DNA from: Flagellimonas profundi
Lineage (GTDB): Bacteria > Bacteroidota > Bacteroidia > Flavobacteriales > Flavobacteriaceae
Assembly (NCBI RefSeq): GCF_017313275.1
Contig: NZ_JAFLNM010000002.1
Coordinates: forward strand, 1-64,000
Length of the DNA stretch: 64,000 bases
Direction of reading: 5' to 3'
In this document: positions 6,352 through 18,662 of the stretch, in pieces
Numbering within the stretch: position 1 is the first letter of the stretch
Layout of the letters: each line of letters begins with the position of its first letter
Translations under genes and position numbers: made by a program
The notes under the pieces: generated by a model
Seen by the model: only the letters and a program-made list of their open reading frames with translations
The model's database searches: none
What the model was told of the DNA's origin: nothing

Positions 6352-9210
6352 CTATCCTACGATATTCACAATCTTTCCTGGCACCACAATAACTTTTTTA
6401 GGTGTTCTTCCTCCCAACTGGGCCTGTGTTTTTTCGTGGGCCAAAACAGCAGCCTCGATTTCATCTTTGCTCATATCCAATGGCAACTCCAATTTAAAAC
6501 GCATTTTACCATTAAAAGATATCGGATACTCCTTACTGCTCTCTACCAAGTACTTTTCTTCAAACGTTGGGAATGGTGCTTCGGCAATAGAATCTGAATA
6601 ACCCAAATGACTCCAAAGCTCTTCGGCAATGTGAGGTGCATAAGGCGATACCAAAATGGCCAATGGTTCCAAAACAGCTTTGCTGGTACATTTTTGTGAG
6701 GTCAATTCGTTGACACAGATCATAAAGGTGGAAACCGAAGTATTGAACGAGAAGTTCTCGATGTCCTCCTCTACCTTTTTAATGGTCTTGTGCAAAGTTT
6801 TCAAATTATCGGCGGTGGGTTCCGCTTCGGCTCCGCTCAGCGACCCATTTGTATACAACTTCCAAAGTTTCTTTAAAAAGGAATGTACACCCGTAATTCC
6901 CGCCGTGTTCCAAGGTTTGGATTGCTCCAAAGGACCCAAGAACATTTCGTACAAACGAAGCGAATCCGCCCCGTACTCCTCACAAATGGCATCTGGGTTG
7001 ACGACATTATATTTGGATTTGGACATTTTTTCAACTTCGCGGCCAACAATGTATTTCCCATCTTCAAGAATGAATTCTGCATCTTTGTATTCTGGTTGCC
7101 ATTCCTTAAATGCCTCAATATCCAGCTCATCCGATGCATTCACCAAAGAAACATCTGCGTGAATAGGAACAACATTCCTACCAGCAATCAAACCTTTCGA
7201 ATACAATTTATTGGAATCCAGTTCTCGATACACAAAAGCACTTGTTCCCGTAATCATTCCTTGGTTGATCAACTTCTGGGCAAATTCGTCCTTGGGCACA
7301 TAACCCATATCGAACATAAACTTCTGCCAAAAGCGGGAATACAACAAGTGGCCCGTAGCGTGCTCGCTACCTCCTATATATAAATCGACATCCTGCCAAT
7401 AGTTGATGGCTTCTGGAGAGAAGATGGCCTCGTCGTTGCGTGGATCCATATACCTATTAAAGTATTGGGAACTTCCCGCCCAACCCGGCATCGTGTTCAA
7501 CTCCAAAGGAAATACATTTTCATTATCGATGAGCTCATTGCTAACTACTTCCGCCTTGAGGCGGTCCCAAGCCCAAGTAGTGGCGTTGCCCAATGGTGGC
7601 TCGCCCGTTTCCGTGGGAAGGTATTTCTCCACTTCGGGTAGTTTTAAAGGCAAATGTTCCAAATCTATCATTTGCGGCATACCATCCACATAATACACTG
7701 GAAAGGGTTCGCCCCAATAACGCTGACGACTAAATACGGCATCGCGTAAACGGTAGTTCACTTTCCCTTCGCCGTGCCCGATTTTTTCCAACTCGTTAAT
7801 GATTTTCTTCATCGCATCTTTATAAGGTAGACCGTTCAGAAAATCGGAGTTGGCAATTACCGTGGTTTCCTTATCGGCAAAAGCCTCTTCGGAAATATCC
7901 ACCCCTTCAAAAATGTTGGGGATAGCTATATTGTAATGTTTTGCAAAATCGTAATCGCGTTGGTCTCCACAGGGCACCGCCATTACGGCTCCCGTTCCGT
8001 AACTGGCCAAAACATAGTCCCCAATCCAAATGGGAATCGGTTCCTTGGTGAACGGATGCTCTGCATAAGCTCCAGTAAATACACCCGAAATGGTTTTCAC
8101 ATCGGCCATACGGTCACGCTCGGAACGTTTTGCCGTGGCTTCCACGTAAGCTTCTACTTCTGCTTTTTGCTCTGGAGTTGTGATTTTTGCCACCAATTCG
8201 TGCTCCGGTGCCAAGGTCATAAAACTTACCCCGAAAATGGTATCGGGACGGGTGGTGAAGACTTCAATTTGATCTGGGTGATTGAGCGAAGTCGAAACCA
8301 CATCTTCATCGCTTCGACTACGCTCAGCGTCCAATACATTAAAAGTAACCGATGCACCAACGGAACGTCCAATCCAGTTGGTTTGGGAATCTTTTAGTGG
8401 CTGTGGCCAATCAATTTTGTCCAATCCGTCCAACAAACGCTGTGCATATGCGGTAATGCGCATACTCCATTGCGTCATTTTTTTACGGACCACGGGATGA
8501 CCTCCACGCTCGGAAACACCATTCACGATTTCATCATTGGCCAAAACAGTACCTAAAGCAGGACACCAATTTACTTCGGTATCCGCCAAATAGGTCAATC
8601 TATATTTTAAGAGGATTTCTTGCTTTTCTGTGTCGGAATAACCATTCCAAGTTGCAGCATCAAAGCTTGGGGTGTCATCATCACAAGAAGCTTCAACATT
8701 GGCATTTCCTTCTTTTTCAAAAATGGAAACCAAACTGGAAATATTTTCCGCTTTATCGGATTTCTTATTGTACCATGCATTGAACAATTGGATAAAGATC
8801 CATTGTGTCCATTTGTAATATTGTGGATTGGAGGTACGTACTTCGCGGCTCCAATCAAAAGAAAAACCAAGCTGGTCTAATTGCTCACGGTACCTGTTAA
8901 TGTTGTTTTCCGTGGTAATTGCCGGATGCTGACCCGTTTGAATCGCATATTGCTCCGCTGGCAATCCGAAGGAATCGTAGCCCATGGGATGCAATACATT
9001 GAACCCTTTATGTCTTTTGTAACGCGAATAGATGTCCGTGGCAATGTATCCCAGCGGGTGCCCTACGTGCAACCCTGCCCCTGACGGGTAAGGGAACATC
9101 GACAATGCATAAAATTTAGGTTTATCCGAATCGTTGGATGCCTTAAAAGTTTCATTTTCTGCCCAATACTTCTGCCATTTGGCCTCAATCTCGCGGAAAT
9201 CGTAATTCAT
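6352..9210 (-). CDS. leuS: Leucyl-tRNA synthetase
   Basis: A 952-residue class I aminoacyl-tRNA synthetase that charges tRNA-Leu. HIGH-type motif HVGHPLGY at residues 48-55, CP1 editing domain with TTRPDTIFG near 318-326, WAGSS near residue 573, and KMSKSKYN in the C-terminal third, then anticodon-binding domain. It is longer than the usual 860-930 residues. Two of the extra stretches, around residues 294-310 and 788-796, are encoded by REP-like palindromic DNA kept in frame (see findings). A third insertion near residues 148-183, rich in acidic and Ser residues, precedes the zinc/editing region. The gene is divergent from ftsX. Confidence 0.97.
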   Translation of the reverse strand: MNYDFREIEAKWQKYWAENETFKASNDSDKPKFYALSMFPYPSGAGLHVGHPLGYIATDIYSRYKRHKGFNVLHPMGYDSFGLPAEQYAIQTGQHPAITTENNINRYREQLDQLGFSFDWSREVRTSNPQYYKWTQWIFIQLFNAWYNKKSDKAENISSLVSIFEKEGNANVEASCDDDTPSFDAATWNGYSDTEKQEILLKYRLTYLADTEVNWCPALGTVLANDEIVNGVSERGGHPVVRKKMTQWSMRITAYAQRLLDGLDKIDWPQPLKDSQTNWIGRSVGASVTFNVLDAERSRSDEDVVSTSLNHPDQIEVFTTRPDTIFGVSFMTLAPEHELVAKITTPEQKAEVEAYVEATAKRSERDRMADVKTISGVFTGAYAEHPFTKEPIPIWIGDYVLASYGTGAVMAVPCGDQRDYDFAKHYNIAIPNIFEGVDISEEAFADKETTVIANSDFLNGLPYKDAMKKIINELEKIGHGEGKVNYRLRDAVFSRQRYWGEPFPVYYVDGMPQMIDLEHLPLKLPEVEKYLPTETGEPPLGNATTWAWDRLKAEVVSNELIDNENVFPLELNTMPGWAGSSQYFNRYMDPRNDEAIFSPEAINYWQDVDLYIGGSEHATGHLLYSRFWQKFMFDMGYVPKDEFAQKLINQGMITGTSAFVYRELDSNKLYSKGLIAGRNVVPIHADVSLVNASDELDIEAFKEWQPEYKDAEFILEDGKYIVGREVEKMSKSKYNVVNPDAICEEYGADSLRLYEMFLGPLEQSKPWNTAGITGVHSFLKKLWKLYTNGSLSGAEAEPTADNLKTLHKTIKKVEEDIENFSFNTSVSTFMICVNELTSQKCTSKAVLEPLAILVSPYAPHIAEELWSHLGYSDSIAEAPFPTFEEKYLVESSKEYPISFNGKMRFKLELPLDMSKDEIEAAVLAHEKTQAQLGGRTPKKVIVVPGKIVNIVG
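6823..6846. repeat. REP-like segment inside leuS (C-terminal)
   Basis: GCTTCGGCTCCGCTCAGCG on the plus strand resembles the common GCTTCGACTNCGCTCAGC repeat unit; it encodes the LSGAEAEP region of LeuS in frame. Confidence 0.4.
8282..8327. repeat. REP doublet (inverted repeat) inside leuS
   Basis: TTGAGCGAAGTCGAA (8282-8296) and TTCGACTACGCTCAG (8313-8327) are inverted copies with one internal mismatch and one at the edge, separated by 16 bp. This is the layout of a REP doublet. It is translated in frame in leuS as about 15 extra residues (RSRSDEDVVSTSLNH) just before the editing-site threonine motif. Confidence 0.7.
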
Positions 9211-9299
9211 TGTTAATCTTGTTCAATTTCGTGTGCAAAAATAGGTTTAATCCCCTAAATACAATTTACTTTTCTATTTTTACGTACTGATTCTACTAT

Positions 9300-10178
9300 A
9301 TGAGCCAATATATTGAACGATATCAGCGTCGAAAACTGATTTCCTCCTACTTTTCCGTGGCTTTGAGCATTGCCTTGGTACTGTTTCTTTTAGGTGTTTT
9401 GGGCCTTTTGGTGCTCAACACCAAAAAATTAGCAGATCACTTTAAGGAGCAGATCACCATTTCAGTGTTTTTAAAGGACAATGCAAAACCTGTGGAAATA
9501 GATCAATTGCAGAAAAGTTTGGCCCTTGCGGAATACACGAAGTCGGCCGAGTACATTTCCAAAGAAGATGCGGCAGAGCAATACAGTGAGGATATTGGTG
9601 AGAATTTTGAAGAGTTTTTGGGCTACAACCCTCTAAAAAATTCCATTGATGTGAATTTGAAGGCAGATTTTGTCTCTTCCCAACAAATTGATGAGATAGC
9701 AGAGGAATTGGCAGCCAAGGCCTACGTGGACGAGGTGAGCTACGATAAACCCCTGATTTCACTACTCAACAACAATGCTCGGAAAATCAGTTTGTGGATA
9801 TTGGTGGCCAGCGCCATTTTTACGGTAATCGCAGTTTTGCTGATCAACAGTTCCATACGACTGTCCATCTATTCCAAAAGGTTTATCATTAAAACCATGC
9901 AGATGGTGGGCGCCACCAAAACCTTTATCCGAAGACCTTTTATATGGACCAACATTAAACTGGGCATGGTCGGAGCTGTAGTGGCATTGATCGGACTTGG
10001 CGTTTTAGTATACTATATCGATAAAAACTTCCCCGAACTGAATCTTTTGCAAGATTATATTGTTCTCATCATTTTATTCGTTAGCGTATTTGGTTTGGGC
10101 GTTATTATTTCCTGGGCCAGCACCCATTTTGCGACACAACGCTTTTTAAACCTGAGAACGGACGATCTTTATTATTAA
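9300..10178 (+). CDS. ftsX: Cell division protein FtsX
   Basis: A 292-residue FtsX permease, partner of the ATPase FtsE, which activates periplasmic peptidoglycan hydrolases at the septum. Topology is standard: transmembrane helix 1 at about 20-42, an extracellular PLD/FtsX domain at 45-160, then three helices near 165-187, 218-240 and 255-277, with a cytoplasmic loop MQMVGATKTFIRRPF between the second and third that contacts FtsE. ftsE is not in the window. It heads a run of same-strand genes (DUF3098, uppP, truB) spaced by 0-30 bp. Confidence 0.93.
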   Translation: MSQYIERYQRRKLISSYFSVALSIALVLFLLGVLGLLVLNTKKLADHFKEQITISVFLKDNAKPVEIDQLQKSLALAEYTKSAEYISKEDAAEQYSEDIGENFEEFLGYNPLKNSIDVNLKADFVSSQQIDEIAEELAAKAYVDEVSYDKPLISLLNNNARKISLWILVASAIFTVIAVLLINSSIRLSIYSKRFIIKTMQMVGATKTFIRRPFIWTNIKLGMVGAVVALIGLGVLVYYIDKNFPELNLLQDYIVLIILFVSVFGLGVIISWASTHFATQRFLNLRTDDLYY

Positions 10179-10187
10179 CTTTGCAGC

Positions 10188-10454
10188 ATGAGCAAGAAAA
10201 ACAACAACGGTCAAAAACCGGCCAAAGAGTTTGTTTTCCAAAAGAAAAACTATCTCTTTCTATTTATAGGTATTGCCTTTATTGCCCTCGGGTTTATTTT
10301 GATGAGTGGTGGCGGAAGCGACGACCCAGAAGTATTCAACCCCGAGATATACAATTTTAGAAGAATTCGTCTTGCACCGACCTTGATTCTTATCGGTCTT
10401 GGCATTCAGGTTTACGCCATTTTGTTGAATCCCCACAAGAAAAAGAAGGAATAA
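10188..10454 (+). CDS. DUF3098 membrane protein
   Basis: An 88-residue protein of the DUF3098 family, found almost only in Bacteroidota. A basic N-terminus (residues 1-20) is followed by a transmembrane helix (about 22-42), a short loop with SGGGSDDPEVFNPEIYNFRR, and a second helix (about 60-80) with a basic tail KKKKE. Function unknown. It lies 9 bp after ftsX and its stop codon is directly adjacent to the uppP start, so a role in envelope growth or division is plausible from context only. A TAACTTTG element overlaps the end of ftsX at 10176-10183. Confidence 0.85.
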   Translation: MSKKNNNGQKPAKEFVFQKKNYLFLFIGIAFIALGFILMSGGGSDDPEVFNPEIYNFRRIRLAPTLILIGLGIQVYAILLNPHKKKKE

Positions 10455-12032: not shown

Positions 12033-12752
12033 ATGAACTTAAATAAGAGCCAGTTATCACTTTTGATTACTTTCTTCTCTATGTCCATAGTGATTTTATT
12101 GTTGTTCAATATTCACTTAGGAGGCATACAAGAGGATGAATACGTCATTGAAATGAGCTTGGCCGATGAAGATATTGAAAAACTTCTAGAAGAGGAAGAG
12201 GAACGATTGGAAGAAATGGAGGCCGCCAACGACCCCATTAAGAGCCACATGGCCGTGAATCAAACAGCCAAACCGAGTGTTGGTAATCCCGAACCTTTAA
12301 AAACTTTGGAAGAGCTCTTGGAAGAAAGGGCCATGAGCAGCGAAACAGGCGAATATGCCGACAACTCTGCTTTTGAAGAACAATTGAAGCAATTACGGGC
12401 CCAACGGGATGAGAAAAAGGAAAAATTGGGCGAACGCGATGCCCAAAAAGAAGAGTTTACCGACTATTTAAAAGACAGGCGCACCAGTATTTCCTATTCC
12501 TTAGTGGATAGAAATGCATATTATTTACCACCTCCTATCTACACCTGTATAGAAGGCGGTAAGGTTGTTGTCAATATTTCGGTGGACGACAATGGTTATG
12601 TTACCGAAGCAAGCTTTAACGACAAAAGTTCCGGAACGGACAACGGTTGTTTGGTGGACAATGCAATAGCCTATGCTTTAAAGGCGCGTTTTAGTCCAGA
12701 TTCCAAGGTATCGCAAATTGGAACAATCACCTATTTATTCCAGAGCAAGTAA
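12033..12752 (+). CDS. TonB-like energy transducer/periplasmic protein
   Basis: A 239-residue protein with an N-terminal membrane anchor (about residues 10-28), a long acidic, Glu/Leu-rich coiled-coil spacer (about 40-140) and a C-terminal TonB-type domain (VVVNISVDDNGYVTEASF, then ALKARFSPD and GTITYLF). It differs from classical TonB in lacking a Pro-rich spacer. It could energise an outer membrane receptor, but no exbB/exbD is nearby. ATG at 12033 is preferred over the TTG at 12006. The last 18 bp overlap the convergent thioredoxin-like gene. Confidence 0.75.
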   Translation: MNLNKSQLSLLITFFSMSIVILLLFNIHLGGIQEDEYVIEMSLADEDIEKLLEEEEERLEEMEAANDPIKSHMAVNQTAKPSVGNPEPLKTLEELLEERAMSSETGEYADNSAFEEQLKQLRAQRDEKKEKLGERDAQKEEFTDYLKDRRTSISYSLVDRNAYYLPPPIYTCIEGGKVVVNISVDDNGYVTEASFNDKSSGTDNGCLVDNAIAYALKARFSPDSKVSQIGTITYLFQSK

Positions 12753-13355
12753 TTTTAGGATATCCTCCAGAATATTTTGCCCTTTGTTTTTATTGTACCA
12801 AACTTGAAGCTCTTGTTTGAACTCATCGGTCAATTTACCGTGTTCCCTTTTGCAATCTTCCACCATTTGAGTGGCAATACTTGGTCTTGGGCCCCACTCG
12901 CCGATAATTTCATCATCAGCTTTGTCCAAAACAATCATTTTAGGAATGGAACGGGCGCCTTTGGTAAGGAAGGTATCCATCAAATCCAGACTTTCATCCC
13001 GCAGAACAACTTTTAGGGTTATGTTCGGGCTTGCTTCTGCAATTTTGTTCATGATGGGCAAACTTGCCGCCGCATCTCCACACCAGCTTTCGGTGAGCAC
13101 CAAGAACACAAGCTCTCTGTCCAAGGAATCCAACTTTTGTTGTACCTCATCGTTGATTTTAAACGTTTTTTCCCACCGCACCATTCGGCGGTCACCAAGC
13201 TTGGTATAATTGACCATAGCTTCAGATTGGTTTGAACCCGTGGACTTACCCATTATCGCCAGTTGACGAACCAATTCAAGGTATTTCGGATAATCCATTG
13301 CCTTTGTTATGTACTCCTGTACCAATTCCAACCTGTTGCTCTCCAATACTTCCAT
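12735..13355 (-). CDS. Thioredoxin-like protein with a single active-site Cys
   Basis: A 206-residue thioredoxin-fold protein (Thioredoxin_9-like). The usual WCxxC is reduced to ESWCGDAAAS near residues 89-98, so the second Cys is lost; the cis-Pro loop ARSIPKMIVLD is present. It has no signal peptide and is likely cytosolic. With one Cys it may act like a monothiol redox protein or bind another ligand. The frame is open up to 13412, but the ATG at 13355 is the first Met in a sequence resembling homologues. It ends inside the convergent TonB-like gene. Confidence 0.8.
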   Translation of the reverse strand: MEVLESNRLELVQEYITKAMDYPKYLELVRQLAIMGKSTGSNQSEAMVNYTKLGDRRMVRWEKTFKINDEVQQKLDSLDRELVFLVLTESWCGDAAASLPIMNKIAEASPNITLKVVLRDESLDLMDTFLTKGARSIPKMIVLDKADDEIIGEWGPRPSIATQMVEDCKREHGKLTDEFKQELQVWYNKNKGQNILEDILKLLALE

Positions 13356-13435
13356 AAAATTGTTTTTGCAAAAGTACCCAGGGCAATCTGCCCAATAGGT
13401 GACTTTTATCATTGGTAGTTTTTACAAGATATTCC

Positions 13436-16195: not shown

Positions 16196-17863
16196 TTATT
16201 TTACATTGATCAATCTACCTTTTTCCATCCGGATTGTCTGGTTACAGCGACTTGCCCATTTCGGGTTCTCACTTACAACAACCAGAGCCCATCCATTTGC
16301 CGGGTCGGCCAAGAAATCCATCATTCTTTCTGTTCCCTCTTCATCGTATTGTTCCAAAGGATCTTTGAGGATCATAAGTTTAGGTCGTGTCACAACACTC
16401 CTGGCCAATACAATCTTTCGAGAAATAAAGTCCGGAATCTTTTTCCCTTCTGGATATAAAATGGTGTTTAGGCCATGGGGCTGCTCTTTTACAAACTCGG
16501 TTAAACTCACTTTTTCCAAGGCCCAGTAAACGTCTTCTATTGGAATATCTTTATTGCCGAAGGTAATGTTGTCCAACAAAGTCCCTTCAAAAGGGTACTC
16601 TTCGGTTAGCGAGTGCCCTAAATAAGATCGGTACTGACTTAATTTTATTCCCTGTAGTGCCACATTGTTGACATAGATTTTACCCGAATCGGGTTCTAAG
16701 ATTCCCGCGATCATCCGTAAAAGGGTAGATCTTCCGGAGCCACTTTTACCTTGAACCAACAATCTAGTGCCGGGGTGGATAGCCAATGATACATGATCTA
16801 TAATCTTTTTATCCAAACCAGGAACTTTATAGACGACATCTTCAAGTTCCACTGTTAAGCCCTCACTATCCTTAAATGGGGTTTCCCCAGTTTGTGGCTC
16901 AAGTTCTTTGTCCACAACTTGCCCCATTTTTTCCAGGGAGGTCAAGAGATCATAAAAAGTTTCAAGGCCTAAAATCATTTTCTCAACAGAGCTGATCACC
17001 AATAAAATAATGATTTCCGCAGCTACAAACTGACCTATGTTCATTTGTTGATCCAAAACCAGCAATCCACCAATCAACAATAATCCGGCAGTCACCAGAA
17101 CTTTAAAGCCTATCATCTGGATAAACTGAAGTACCAATATTCTAAAATGGCTTTCCCTGGCCTCCAAATATTCTTCTACCAGTGTATCGTTCTTTTCCAA
17201 AGCATGGGATGTTTTGCCCGAAAGTTTAAAACTAACAATGGAGCGGGCAATTTCTTGCACCCAATGGGCAACCCTATACTTGATCTTGGACTCTTCCAAA
17301 CTGGTATCCAGCCCCTTTTGAGCGGTGAACTTGAACACAATGTAAATAAGCAAGAGCAACAATAGGCCATAGATGATAAAAAATGGGTGATAAAAAGAAA
17401 GCAACAATAACCCAAAAACTATTTGCAGCAATGCAGCTGGGAAATCGATAAGTATTTTGGAAAGGGATTTTTGAACTGTAAGGGTATCAAAAAAACGGTT
17501 GGCCAACTCTGGCGGATAGTAATACCTAAGCTCACTCATTTTGATTTTTGGAAAACGATATGCAAACTCAAAAGATGACCTGGTAAAAATTTTCTGTTGA
17601 AGGTTTTCAATAATCCGTATTTGCATTAATTGAAGAACACCAACAAATGCAACTCCCAAAGTGACCAAGACCACAAGAACGATCCAAGATGTACTGACCC
17701 TTGCCCCCTGTATAAGGTTGATAATGGCCTGTATTCCCAATGGAAGGGAAAGGTTTACCACACCAGCAAAAATAGCGTAGTAAAATATTTGAAAGATGTC
17801 TTTTTTGTCCAAGGTCAACAGACCCATTAAACGTTGCCAAGCGGTTAGTATGTTTTTAGCCAT
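16196..17863 (-). CDS. ABC exporter half-transporter with degenerate ATPase motifs
   Basis: A 555-residue fusion of a six-helix ABC membrane domain (about 20-320) and a nucleotide-binding domain (about 335-555). The fold and spacing are those of type I exporters, but the key motifs are altered: Walker A is GKSGSGRST (Lys to Arg, residue 378), the Q-loop Gln is Thr (420), LSGGQ is IPDFI (476-480), Walker B is LMILKD in place of LLLLDE (500-501), and the H-loop His is Glu (VSENP, 532). The reading frame is intact, so the change looks selected and not a recent pseudogene. It sits between tetR (8 bp overlap) and hlyD (5 bp gap). Confidence 0.88.
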   Translation of the reverse strand: MAKNILTAWQRLMGLLTLDKKDIFQIFYYAIFAGVVNLSLPLGIQAIINLIQGARVSTSWIVLVVLVTLGVAFVGVLQLMQIRIIENLQQKIFTRSSFEFAYRFPKIKMSELRYYYPPELANRFFDTLTVQKSLSKILIDFPAALLQIVFGLLLLSFYHPFFIIYGLLLLLLIYIVFKFTAQKGLDTSLEESKIKYRVAHWVQEIARSIVSFKLSGKTSHALEKNDTLVEEYLEARESHFRILVLQFIQMIGFKVLVTAGLLLIGGLLVLDQQMNIGQFVAAEIIILLVISSVEKMILGLETFYDLLTSLEKMGQVVDKELEPQTGETPFKDSEGLTVELEDVVYKVPGLDKKIIDHVSLAIHPGTRLLVQGKSGSGRSTLLRMIAGILEPDSGKIYVNNVALQGIKLSQYRSYLGHSLTEEYPFEGTLLDNITFGNKDIPIEDVYWALEKVSLTEFVKEQPHGLNTILYPEGKKIPDFISRKIVLARSVVTRPKLMILKDPLEQYDEEGTERMMDFLADPANGWALVVVSENPKWASRCNQTIRMEKGRLINVK

Positions 17864-18542
17864 TAGGTTTAAGGTTTAACGTGCGGAATATTAAGTCCGT
17901 AAAAAATTGGGTTGGTGTGATTTTTTGATTACAATCGGTAAGTTTTGGAAAGTGCTCTGCCAGAAAATATTGATGCAGCGTACCTTCCAAAATAGTACTG
18001 GCCAAACTCAAAGGATAAGGATAACTGCCATCCACTTCCTGAATCATTTTACTGATACGACTCACAATTCTCTTACTGATTGTAAAGTAACCATCCTTGT
18101 TTTCTTGATCAACCTCCTTTACCAAGTAGGATTTAGAATACTCATTGATTATCAATCTATTTAGAACCACCTCGTTCACATGTGAAAACGAACTGTCTTC
18201 CTCCACATTTTGTGTCAGCACTTCTATTGCTTTTTTAAGTTTTTTCTCAGGATTGGAAATGCCATTGGTAGCAAAAACCATCCGATACTCCATCCAACCC
18301 CAATACCATGAGGCCAAATAGAGCAACAACTTATGCTTGTTCTCAAAATATCGATAAATAGAGCTCTCATTGGATTGAATGCGAACCCCAAGCTTTTTAA
18401 ACGTAAAGCATTCAAATCCGATTTCATCGATAAGCAGTATACTCTGCTCTACTATTTTCTTTCCCAAATCTGAAGATTCAGGGTCCTTTACATAGAGCTT
18501 TCCATTCATTTCCAATTTTACGGACTTCATCAAAATATCCAT
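17856..18542 (-). CDS. TetR family transcriptional regulator
   Basis: A 228-residue TetR-type repressor. The N-terminal HTH covers about residues 25-70 (IVEQSILLIDEIGFECFTFK, then QSNESSIYRYFENKHKLL); the C-terminal ligand domain is variable and Leu/Ile-rich. The frame begins with a TTG three codons earlier (18551), but ATG at 18542 is the more likely start. Its stop overlaps the ABC gene start, so it is the first gene of a TetR-ABC-HlyD-TolC operon and probably represses its own operon. The inducer is unknown. Confidence 0.87.
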   Translation of the reverse strand: MDILMKSVKLEMNGKLYVKDPESSDLGKKIVEQSILLIDEIGFECFTFKKLGVRIQSNESSIYRYFENKHKLLLYLASWYWGWMEYRMVFATNGISNPEKKLKKAIEVLTQNVEEDSSFSHVNEVVLNRLIINEYSKSYLVKEVDQENKDGYFTISKRIVSRISKMIQEVDGSYPYPLSLASTILEGTLHQYFLAEHFPKLTDCNQKITPTQFFTDLIFRTLNLKPNG

Positions 18543-18662
18543 TCCATCCAATTTTTAAAATAGATTCTCGCGAATATAATAGTATTACTATCAACATATA
18601 ACACTTTAACTTTCAATTAACGATTTCTTATTTTACTGTACTTTTGATAAAAACGGACAGAT

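Follow-up and report, generated by a model that had tools for sequence, protein, structure and literature searches.

What drives an exporter of the ATP-binding cassette (ABC) fold when every catalytic motif of its ATPase has been changed? The question is raised by a 555-residue protein of Flagellimonas profundi, encoded within positions 1 to 64,000 of contig NZ_JAFLNM010000002.1 (assembly GCF_017313275.1), the 64,000-nucleotide stretch that is referred to here as the window. The same locus encodes an HlyD-family periplasmic adaptor and a TolC-like outer membrane efflux protein (OEP). ATP hydrolysis at the inner membrane is taken to be what powers type I secretion and tripartite ABC efflux. A first-pass annotation of the window had proposed that this complex should not hydrolyse ATP, and that it either pairs with an active partner encoded elsewhere or is a channel or sensor not driven by ATP. 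Our analysis favours, as the probable reading, a large family whose ancestor was an ABC transporter for type I secretion or peptide export, and in which the nucleotide-binding domain (NBD) has decayed stepwise and is no longer an ATPase, while the membrane domain, HlyD and the TolC-like channel have been retained.

The open reading frame (ORF) of the ABC protein is intact. Five features were taken as the marks of an active ABC ATPase, namely the Walker A Lys, the Q-loop Gln, the LSGGQ signature, the Walker B Asp-Glu pair and the H-loop His, and the protein has none of them. The Walker A Lys is replaced by R378, the Q-loop Gln by T420, LSGGQ by IPDFI at 476-480, Walker B Asp-Glu by K500-D501, and the H-loop His by E532, so that all five substitutions reported by the first-pass annotation are present in an uninterrupted frame. 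The best 120 orthologues were then aligned, with the query counted in (78-100% identity; the named ones mostly Flagellimonas, Muricauda or Allomuricauda). At the position of the Walker B Asp all 120 have Lys, and at that of the Glu 118 have Asp and 2 have Glu. The H-loop position is Glu in 102, Ala in 7, Gln in 6, Asp in 3 and Lys in 2, and His in none; the signature begins with [ILF]P throughout. Judged from the alignment, in which LSGGQ, Walker B Asp-Glu and the H-loop His are each found in 0/120, the loss of these three motifs is a conserved trait of the family and not chance. The two remaining changes carry less weight. The Walker A change alone is not diagnostic, since Lys is retained in 72 of the 120 and Arg found in 48. 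The aligned Q-loop position is Gln in no orthologue; a Gln lies three residues ahead of it in 73, where this protein has His, and in those 73 the Q-loop may be shifted.

Ratios of nonsynonymous to synonymous substitution rates (dN/dS) were estimated for nine close sequences including the query, after exclusion of pairs whose dS was undefined or reached 2. The ratio was ~0.018 for the membrane domain (22/36 pairs) and ~0.034 for the NBD (14/36 pairs), at a dS of ~1.4, which is near saturation. The membrane domain is under strong purifying selection, and the NBD is selected more weakly. Six orthologues at 78-84% overall identity follow the same pattern, being 64-76% identical in the NBD and 86-92% in the membrane domain. 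Orthologues with normal motifs and relaxed selection had been named by the first-pass annotation as signs against its proposal; what was found is motif loss in all 120 and dN/dS well below 1.

To delimit the family, a profile (A1) built from 29 diverse members was searched against 395 genomes of the phylum, with three candidates scored per genome. The profile separated 98 loci in 97 genomes at E ≤ 6e-135 from the next match at 1.2e-55. A class-level search with a single protein gave a match at E ≤ 1e-60 in 139 of 295 genomes. Part of the members matched in these searches were examined for motifs, after removal of L140 (a fragment), of L074 and L217, which lie at contig ends, and of proteins identical to another over their last 300 residues. 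Among 120 distinct class-type NBD-bearing members, a group that includes some from non-class genomes of the phylum-level set (e.g. L119, L139), an LSGGQ-type signature was found in none, Walker B Asp-Glu in 1 and the H-loop His in 2, with Walker A formally intact in 80 and Q-loop counts unsure owing to loose alignment. In a deep clade outside the class (L121-L137, n = 17), Walker A was intact in 17, Asp-Glu in 16 and His in 13, with an LSGGQ-type signature in 0 and LSTGQ or LSTGE in 4. The family spans the class, and on these motif patterns its loss of the motor is graded, from members with only a damaged signature, through members in which signature and His are gone and some that also lack Walker A, to members without an NBD; the root and the order of loss are provisional, being read from a quickly built tree whose stem is long.

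Proteins related to one deep-clade member were labelled in the database as Kapabacteria/Chlorobi, Armatimonas, Gemmatimonadota, Luteitalea, Planctomycetota and others. A1 scored 55 of 120 of them at 444-804 bits, compared with at most 189 for the non-family matches of the phylum search, and among these 55 LSRGQ and LSSGQ signatures with Asp-Glu and His occur. P0286, P0293, P0325 and P0355 (one labelled Gemmatimonadota) have the Walker A Lys replaced by Arg, Ser or Gln and a Walker B Asp-Asp, with the H-loop His intact; they may be relatives with a separate pattern of loss. No description of the family was found in the open-licence literature within the search terms used.

The end point of the series is a protein with no NBD at all. 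The NBD is absent in 64 of 80 named loci, where a membrane domain of ~334 residues is followed directly by hlyD. Of these, 63 were called by length, and L201 was added as a 487-residue frame with the same end point that is longer upstream only. Distinct NBD-less proteins number 66 overall when unnamed loci are included (six NBD-less, four of them from the same genomes as named ones). HlyD lies downstream at 64/64 named NBD-less loci, its frame beginning anywhere from 101 bases ahead of the membrane-domain frame's end to 96 bases past it, and an OEP gene was found at 62/64, contig ends cutting the remaining two. One apparently NBD-less gene, L074 (G303), ends at its contig end and was dropped; hlyD frames adjoin the 64 that were counted, and contig-end artefacts were rejected as their explanation.

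The NBD-less proteins, which come from Pedobacter, Mucilaginibacter, Hymenobacter, Spirosoma and others, form a single clade with support of 100/100 in a tree built without the outgroup and without the long rows L083, L084 and L136. The clade is nested among NBD-bearing members in a quick tree with long outgroup branches. For the NBD-less membrane domain, dN/dS was 0.024 in a Pedobacter set (14/45 pairs). Of all regions, coupling helix 2 alone, which docks on the NBD, showed clearly lower conservation in the NBD-less proteins (entropy 2.45 versus 2.01 and 1.79); coupling helix 1 did not. A displaced NBD was sought with the NBD of L205, one of the nearest NBD-bearing relatives, which in two NBD-bearing controls found the family NBDs (6e-74; 4e-52 and 4e-49) and matched ordinary ABC NBDs at 2.9e-26. 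Six NBD-less genomes yielded no displaced family-type NBD, their best match of 1.1e-26 lying at the level of those ordinary NBDs, and fast-evolving displaced NBDs could escape this search. With no NBD, the membrane-domain dimer of these proteins has no means of hydrolysing ATP alone, yet it has long been kept with the adaptor and channel. Some public names do not fit these sequences: 'ABC transporter ATP-binding protein', given to proteins of 330-334 residues without an NBD, and 'peptidase domain-containing ABC transporter' are misnomers in the cases examined here.

The membrane domain itself retains the fold of an exporter in structure models. The protein of the window matches both PF00664 and PF00005 above the Pfam cut-offs; for PF00664 the relative L205 scored 27.1, just below the cut-off of 28. 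Long transmembrane helices that extend into the cell interior, as is typical of this fold, are predicted at 20-52, 58-106, 117-158, 161-207, 220-270 and 276-317, and models with and without the NBD adopt the fold of a type IV ABC exporter, with the HlyB/D structure 8dck among their top structural matches. A sequence search of solved structures returned mostly generic NBD matches. Conserved charged positions are acidic at E86, D140, E283 and E294 and basic at K132, K195, R236 and K312, and they fall from transmembrane helix (TM) 2 to TM6 when placed by predicted secondary structure. As a guess, they might take part in coupling or bind a substrate that is anionic.

Taken at the level of motifs and domain content, these data suggest that the complex likely works without ATP hydrolysis of its own, and that in NBD-bearing members the NBD is likely at most a nucleotide-binding, structural or regulatory domain. 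To this extent the expectation that the protein should not hydrolyse ATP finds support in the conserved motif loss and in the NBD-less relatives. The channel or sensor not driven by ATP of the first-pass annotation is compatible with the evidence. Less certainly, and by analogy with the NBD-less transporter SbmA and the truncated exporters LmrA-MD and MsbA-MD, which use protons, the membrane-domain dimer may be an ion-gradient-driven or facilitative exporter. In the mechanism we propose as the simplest, a switch from ATP to gradient-driven or facilitated export would have occurred before or during NBD loss, the membrane-domain dimer would hand the substrate to HlyD-TolC, and ATP binding and regulation might persist where Walker A is intact. 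We suggest more tentatively, at somewhat below even confidence, that an ABC exporter has here turned, for the second time in nature and independently, into a transporter not driven by ATP hydrolysis, in this case as part of a tripartite HlyD-TolC machine whose intermediates are still living, constituting an 'ATP-free type I secretion' class across Bacteroidota with relatives in neighbouring phyla. If true, ABC-fold export would be able to run on another energy source in nature. A widespread, selected lineage would have disarmed and then dropped its ATPase while keeping membrane domain, adaptor and channel, offering an ordered series for testing the transition from primary to secondary transport.

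An alternative is that the degenerate or NBD-less half works as part of a heteromer, in which ATP is hydrolysed by an active ABC half-transporter whose gene lies elsewhere. The genome of the window encodes five PF00664 proteins, the family member and four half-transporters. Each of the four has a counterpart in the two same-genus genomes without the family. For three of them the full-length identity is 77-95%; the fourth is matched at 94% in one of these genomes, and in the other by a contig-end fragment of 382 residues at 93.7%. None of the four is thus confined to genomes that hold the family, though an unlinked, shared partner may exist. The partner elsewhere that the first-pass annotation had envisaged therefore gains no support from this genome. 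Two of its half-transporters have features of their own. L246 (G000:C2:1850033) has the Walker B Glu changed to Asp (LFDDCLSA) with LSGGQ intact and is possibly a heterodimer subunit, and L227 (G000:C7:97488) has an LSSGQ signature with Walker A, Asp-Glu and His intact; from their motifs a pairing of the two is imaginable, neither being specific to the family.

Beyond this genome, no recurrently adjacent partner gene was found in the neighbourhoods of 131 loci. At L090 a canonical MsbA-like half-transporter (LSGGQ, Asp-Glu, His; 8320-10254) lies directly upstream of the degenerate member, the sole case among 29 loci and a point in favour of a heteromer. In each of six NBD-less genomes (three candidates scored each) the NBD-less protein was the sole family member detected. 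The degenerate half of a heterodimeric exporter lends its signature motif to the partner's site, and this is what the family has lost, an LSGGQ-type signature being found in 0/120 class-type and 0/17 deep-clade members. Exporters with one degenerate site are nonetheless known (TmrAB, TM287/288 and BmrCD, in the available portion of PMC8277102), and two NBD-less genomes hold several other PF00664 proteins. We regard the heteromer as unlikely.

Distinctly unlikely, in our estimate, is that the membrane-domain dimer moves no substrate and serves as a scaffold, gate or sensor, holding or gating the HlyD-TolC conduit or sensing a ligand. In its favour, the conduit genes stay while the motor goes, and a TetR-type regulator is encoded near 40 of 131 members. 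On the other side, the whole exporter fold is retained in the models, and conserved charges from TM2 to TM6 seem excessive for a plug.

The NBD-bearing members might instead run a slow or nucleotide-gated ATP cycle on non-canonical residues, in which case the loss of the NBD in the other clade would be a functional change apart. Of the class-type members 80/120 have an intact Walker A, Asp-Glu and His persist in 16/17 and 13/17 of the deep clade, and the NBD combines an intact modelled fold with purifying selection. Such a cycle is very unlikely when signature, Walker B Asp-Glu and His are changed jointly in the protein and its orthologues and the NBD evolves faster than the membrane domain. 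Local decay of a recent pseudogene-like allele, or a sequencing artefact, has the motif loss itself and nothing further in its favour and can be dismissed: a homologue at E ≤ 1e-60 is present in 33 of 35 other same-genus genomes (in one, G029, as a contig-edge piece), 120/120 orthologues share the Walker B Lys and the loss of signature and His, and dN/dS is far below neutrality.

Several observations weigh against a family that exports without hydrolysing ATP itself. Walker A is intact in so many class-type proteins that many members may still bind ATP, and weak hydrolysis is possible; likewise the NBD performs some role, because its dN/dS is ~0.03 in close orthologues. A distant relative, P0349, reads LSGGQ with Asp-Glu and without the H-loop His. 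The two NBD-less genomes mentioned above hold 10 and 7 PF00664 matches, family member counted, and a cryptic partner may lie among the others. The faster divergence of the NBD is set against an imperfect control. Across 12 comparisons within the family, NBD identity minus membrane-domain identity is -2 to -31 points; for four canonical half-transporters of the genus, in 15 comparisons, it is -5 to +20 points, and these pairs are mostly closer than the family pairs. The gene set, too, is not universal. ABC protein, HlyD and OEP are encoded together in the window, at 28/29 loci of one set (a contig end cutting the remaining one) and at 76/80 loci of another; among 20 further loci HlyD was found at 17 and OEP at 16. 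HlyD is missing next door at L123 and L140, a contig end intervenes at L126, and L127 has HlyD without OEP. In the set of 80, L208 extends 1.8 kb past HlyD without an OEP match.

The genes of the locus are listed in Table 1. The tight operon described in the first-pass annotation is confirmed by their spacing, the TetR-like gene overlapping the ABC start by 8 bases, the ABC stop lying 5 bases from the HlyD start, and the HlyD and OEP genes overlapping by 23 bases.

Table 1. Features of the exporter locus, with positions in the window.
Feature	Positions	Strand	Remarks
ABC-exporter-like protein, 555 residues	16196..17863	-	membrane domain ~1-325, NBD 338-555; NBD fold predicted intact, five catalytic motifs all changed
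Membrane domain, residues 1-325	16889..17863	-	more conserved part of the ABC protein; holds E86, K132, K195, R236, E283, K312
Pseudo-NBD, residues 338-555	16199..16852	-	R378, T420, IPDFI 476-480, K500-D501, E532
HlyD-family periplasmic adaptor, 451 residues	14835..16190	-	
TolC-like OEP (PF02321), 473 residues	13436..14857	-	
TetR-like regulator, first gene of the operon	17856..18551	-	TetR_N 23.9 bits, slightly below the Pfam cut-off of 24
Thioredoxin_9 protein, downstream of the operon	12735..13412	-	

Clustering of the neighbourhoods of 131 loci identified ABC, HlyD, OEP and, at 40 loci, TetR as the widely shared genes. With homologues near a minority of members, the TetR gene is no defining part of the system; it hints, though weakly, that the substrate is small and amphipathic. 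No recurrent substrate gene was found among the conserved neighbours of these loci, and RND-type genes lay near the family member at 11. The Thioredoxin_9 gene adjoins the operon mainly in near relatives (L038-L041), with a weak homologue also upstream in L186, and is probably outside the export system. A small ORF of ~130 residues recurs upstream of the NBD-less gene at 15 loci, mainly in Pedobacter and Mucilaginibacter (14 of the 15 being L071, L073, L141-L148 and L150-L153).

The first-pass annotation expected this to be an unusual tripartite system. It is not an isolated oddity of one genome: the decay and loss of the NBD form a series of grades across the phylum, and this protein stands at one of them. 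Gene set and fold are shared with type I secretion (HlyB/HlyD/TolC), which differs from the family in that here the ATPase appears, by motifs and NBD absence, to be degenerate or missing. An N-terminal extension in members of 700-840 residues resembles a C39-like domain, a likeness that is unconfirmed and has no Pfam match for L090 or L205. As in TmrAB, TM287/288 and BmrCD, degenerate catalytic residues are kept by selection, but in the family the signature is also lost, and a dedicated active partner was not found by the searches described above. In EmrAB-TolC, as in the favoured reading, an HlyD-family adaptor and TolC serve an inner-membrane transporter that ATP does not drive; that transporter is an MFS protein and not of the ABC fold. 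SecA_DEAD-HlyD loci encode type-I-secretion-like proteins without a recognised ABC transporter, and differ in having a SecA-like ATPase and, in the portion of the source available, no ABC homologue identified (PMC4452313).

The NBD-less members resemble LmrA-MD and MsbA-MD, truncated exporters consisting of the membrane domain alone that are reported, in the available parts of the sources, to be ion-gradient-driven (PMC2704374 and PMC4979069, respectively); unlike the family, these are laboratory truncations and not tripartite. A close known system is that of the SbmA/BacA (SLiPT) peptide transporters (PMC9408558, in part), and SbmA is described as a protein that occurs in nature without an NBD, is related to ABC membrane domains and is driven by protons (PMC13316013). 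The two belong to different Pfam families: in three NBD-less proteins PF00664 was the sole confident match and SbmA_BacA gave none at E ≤ 10. SbmA is moreover an importer of peptides, with adaptor and outer-membrane channel unmentioned in the part of its description that was available, whereas hlyD and OEP genes accompany the NBD-less proteins at nearly all their loci. Compared with SbmA/BacA traits, the family has lost the NBD in one clade, in which coupling helix 2 and not coupling helix 1 is less conserved, and its conserved acidic residues E86, D140, E283 and E294 may be set beside the SbmA/BacA glutamate ladder. What further distinguishes the family from SbmA/BacA is that intermediates of its motor loss are still living.
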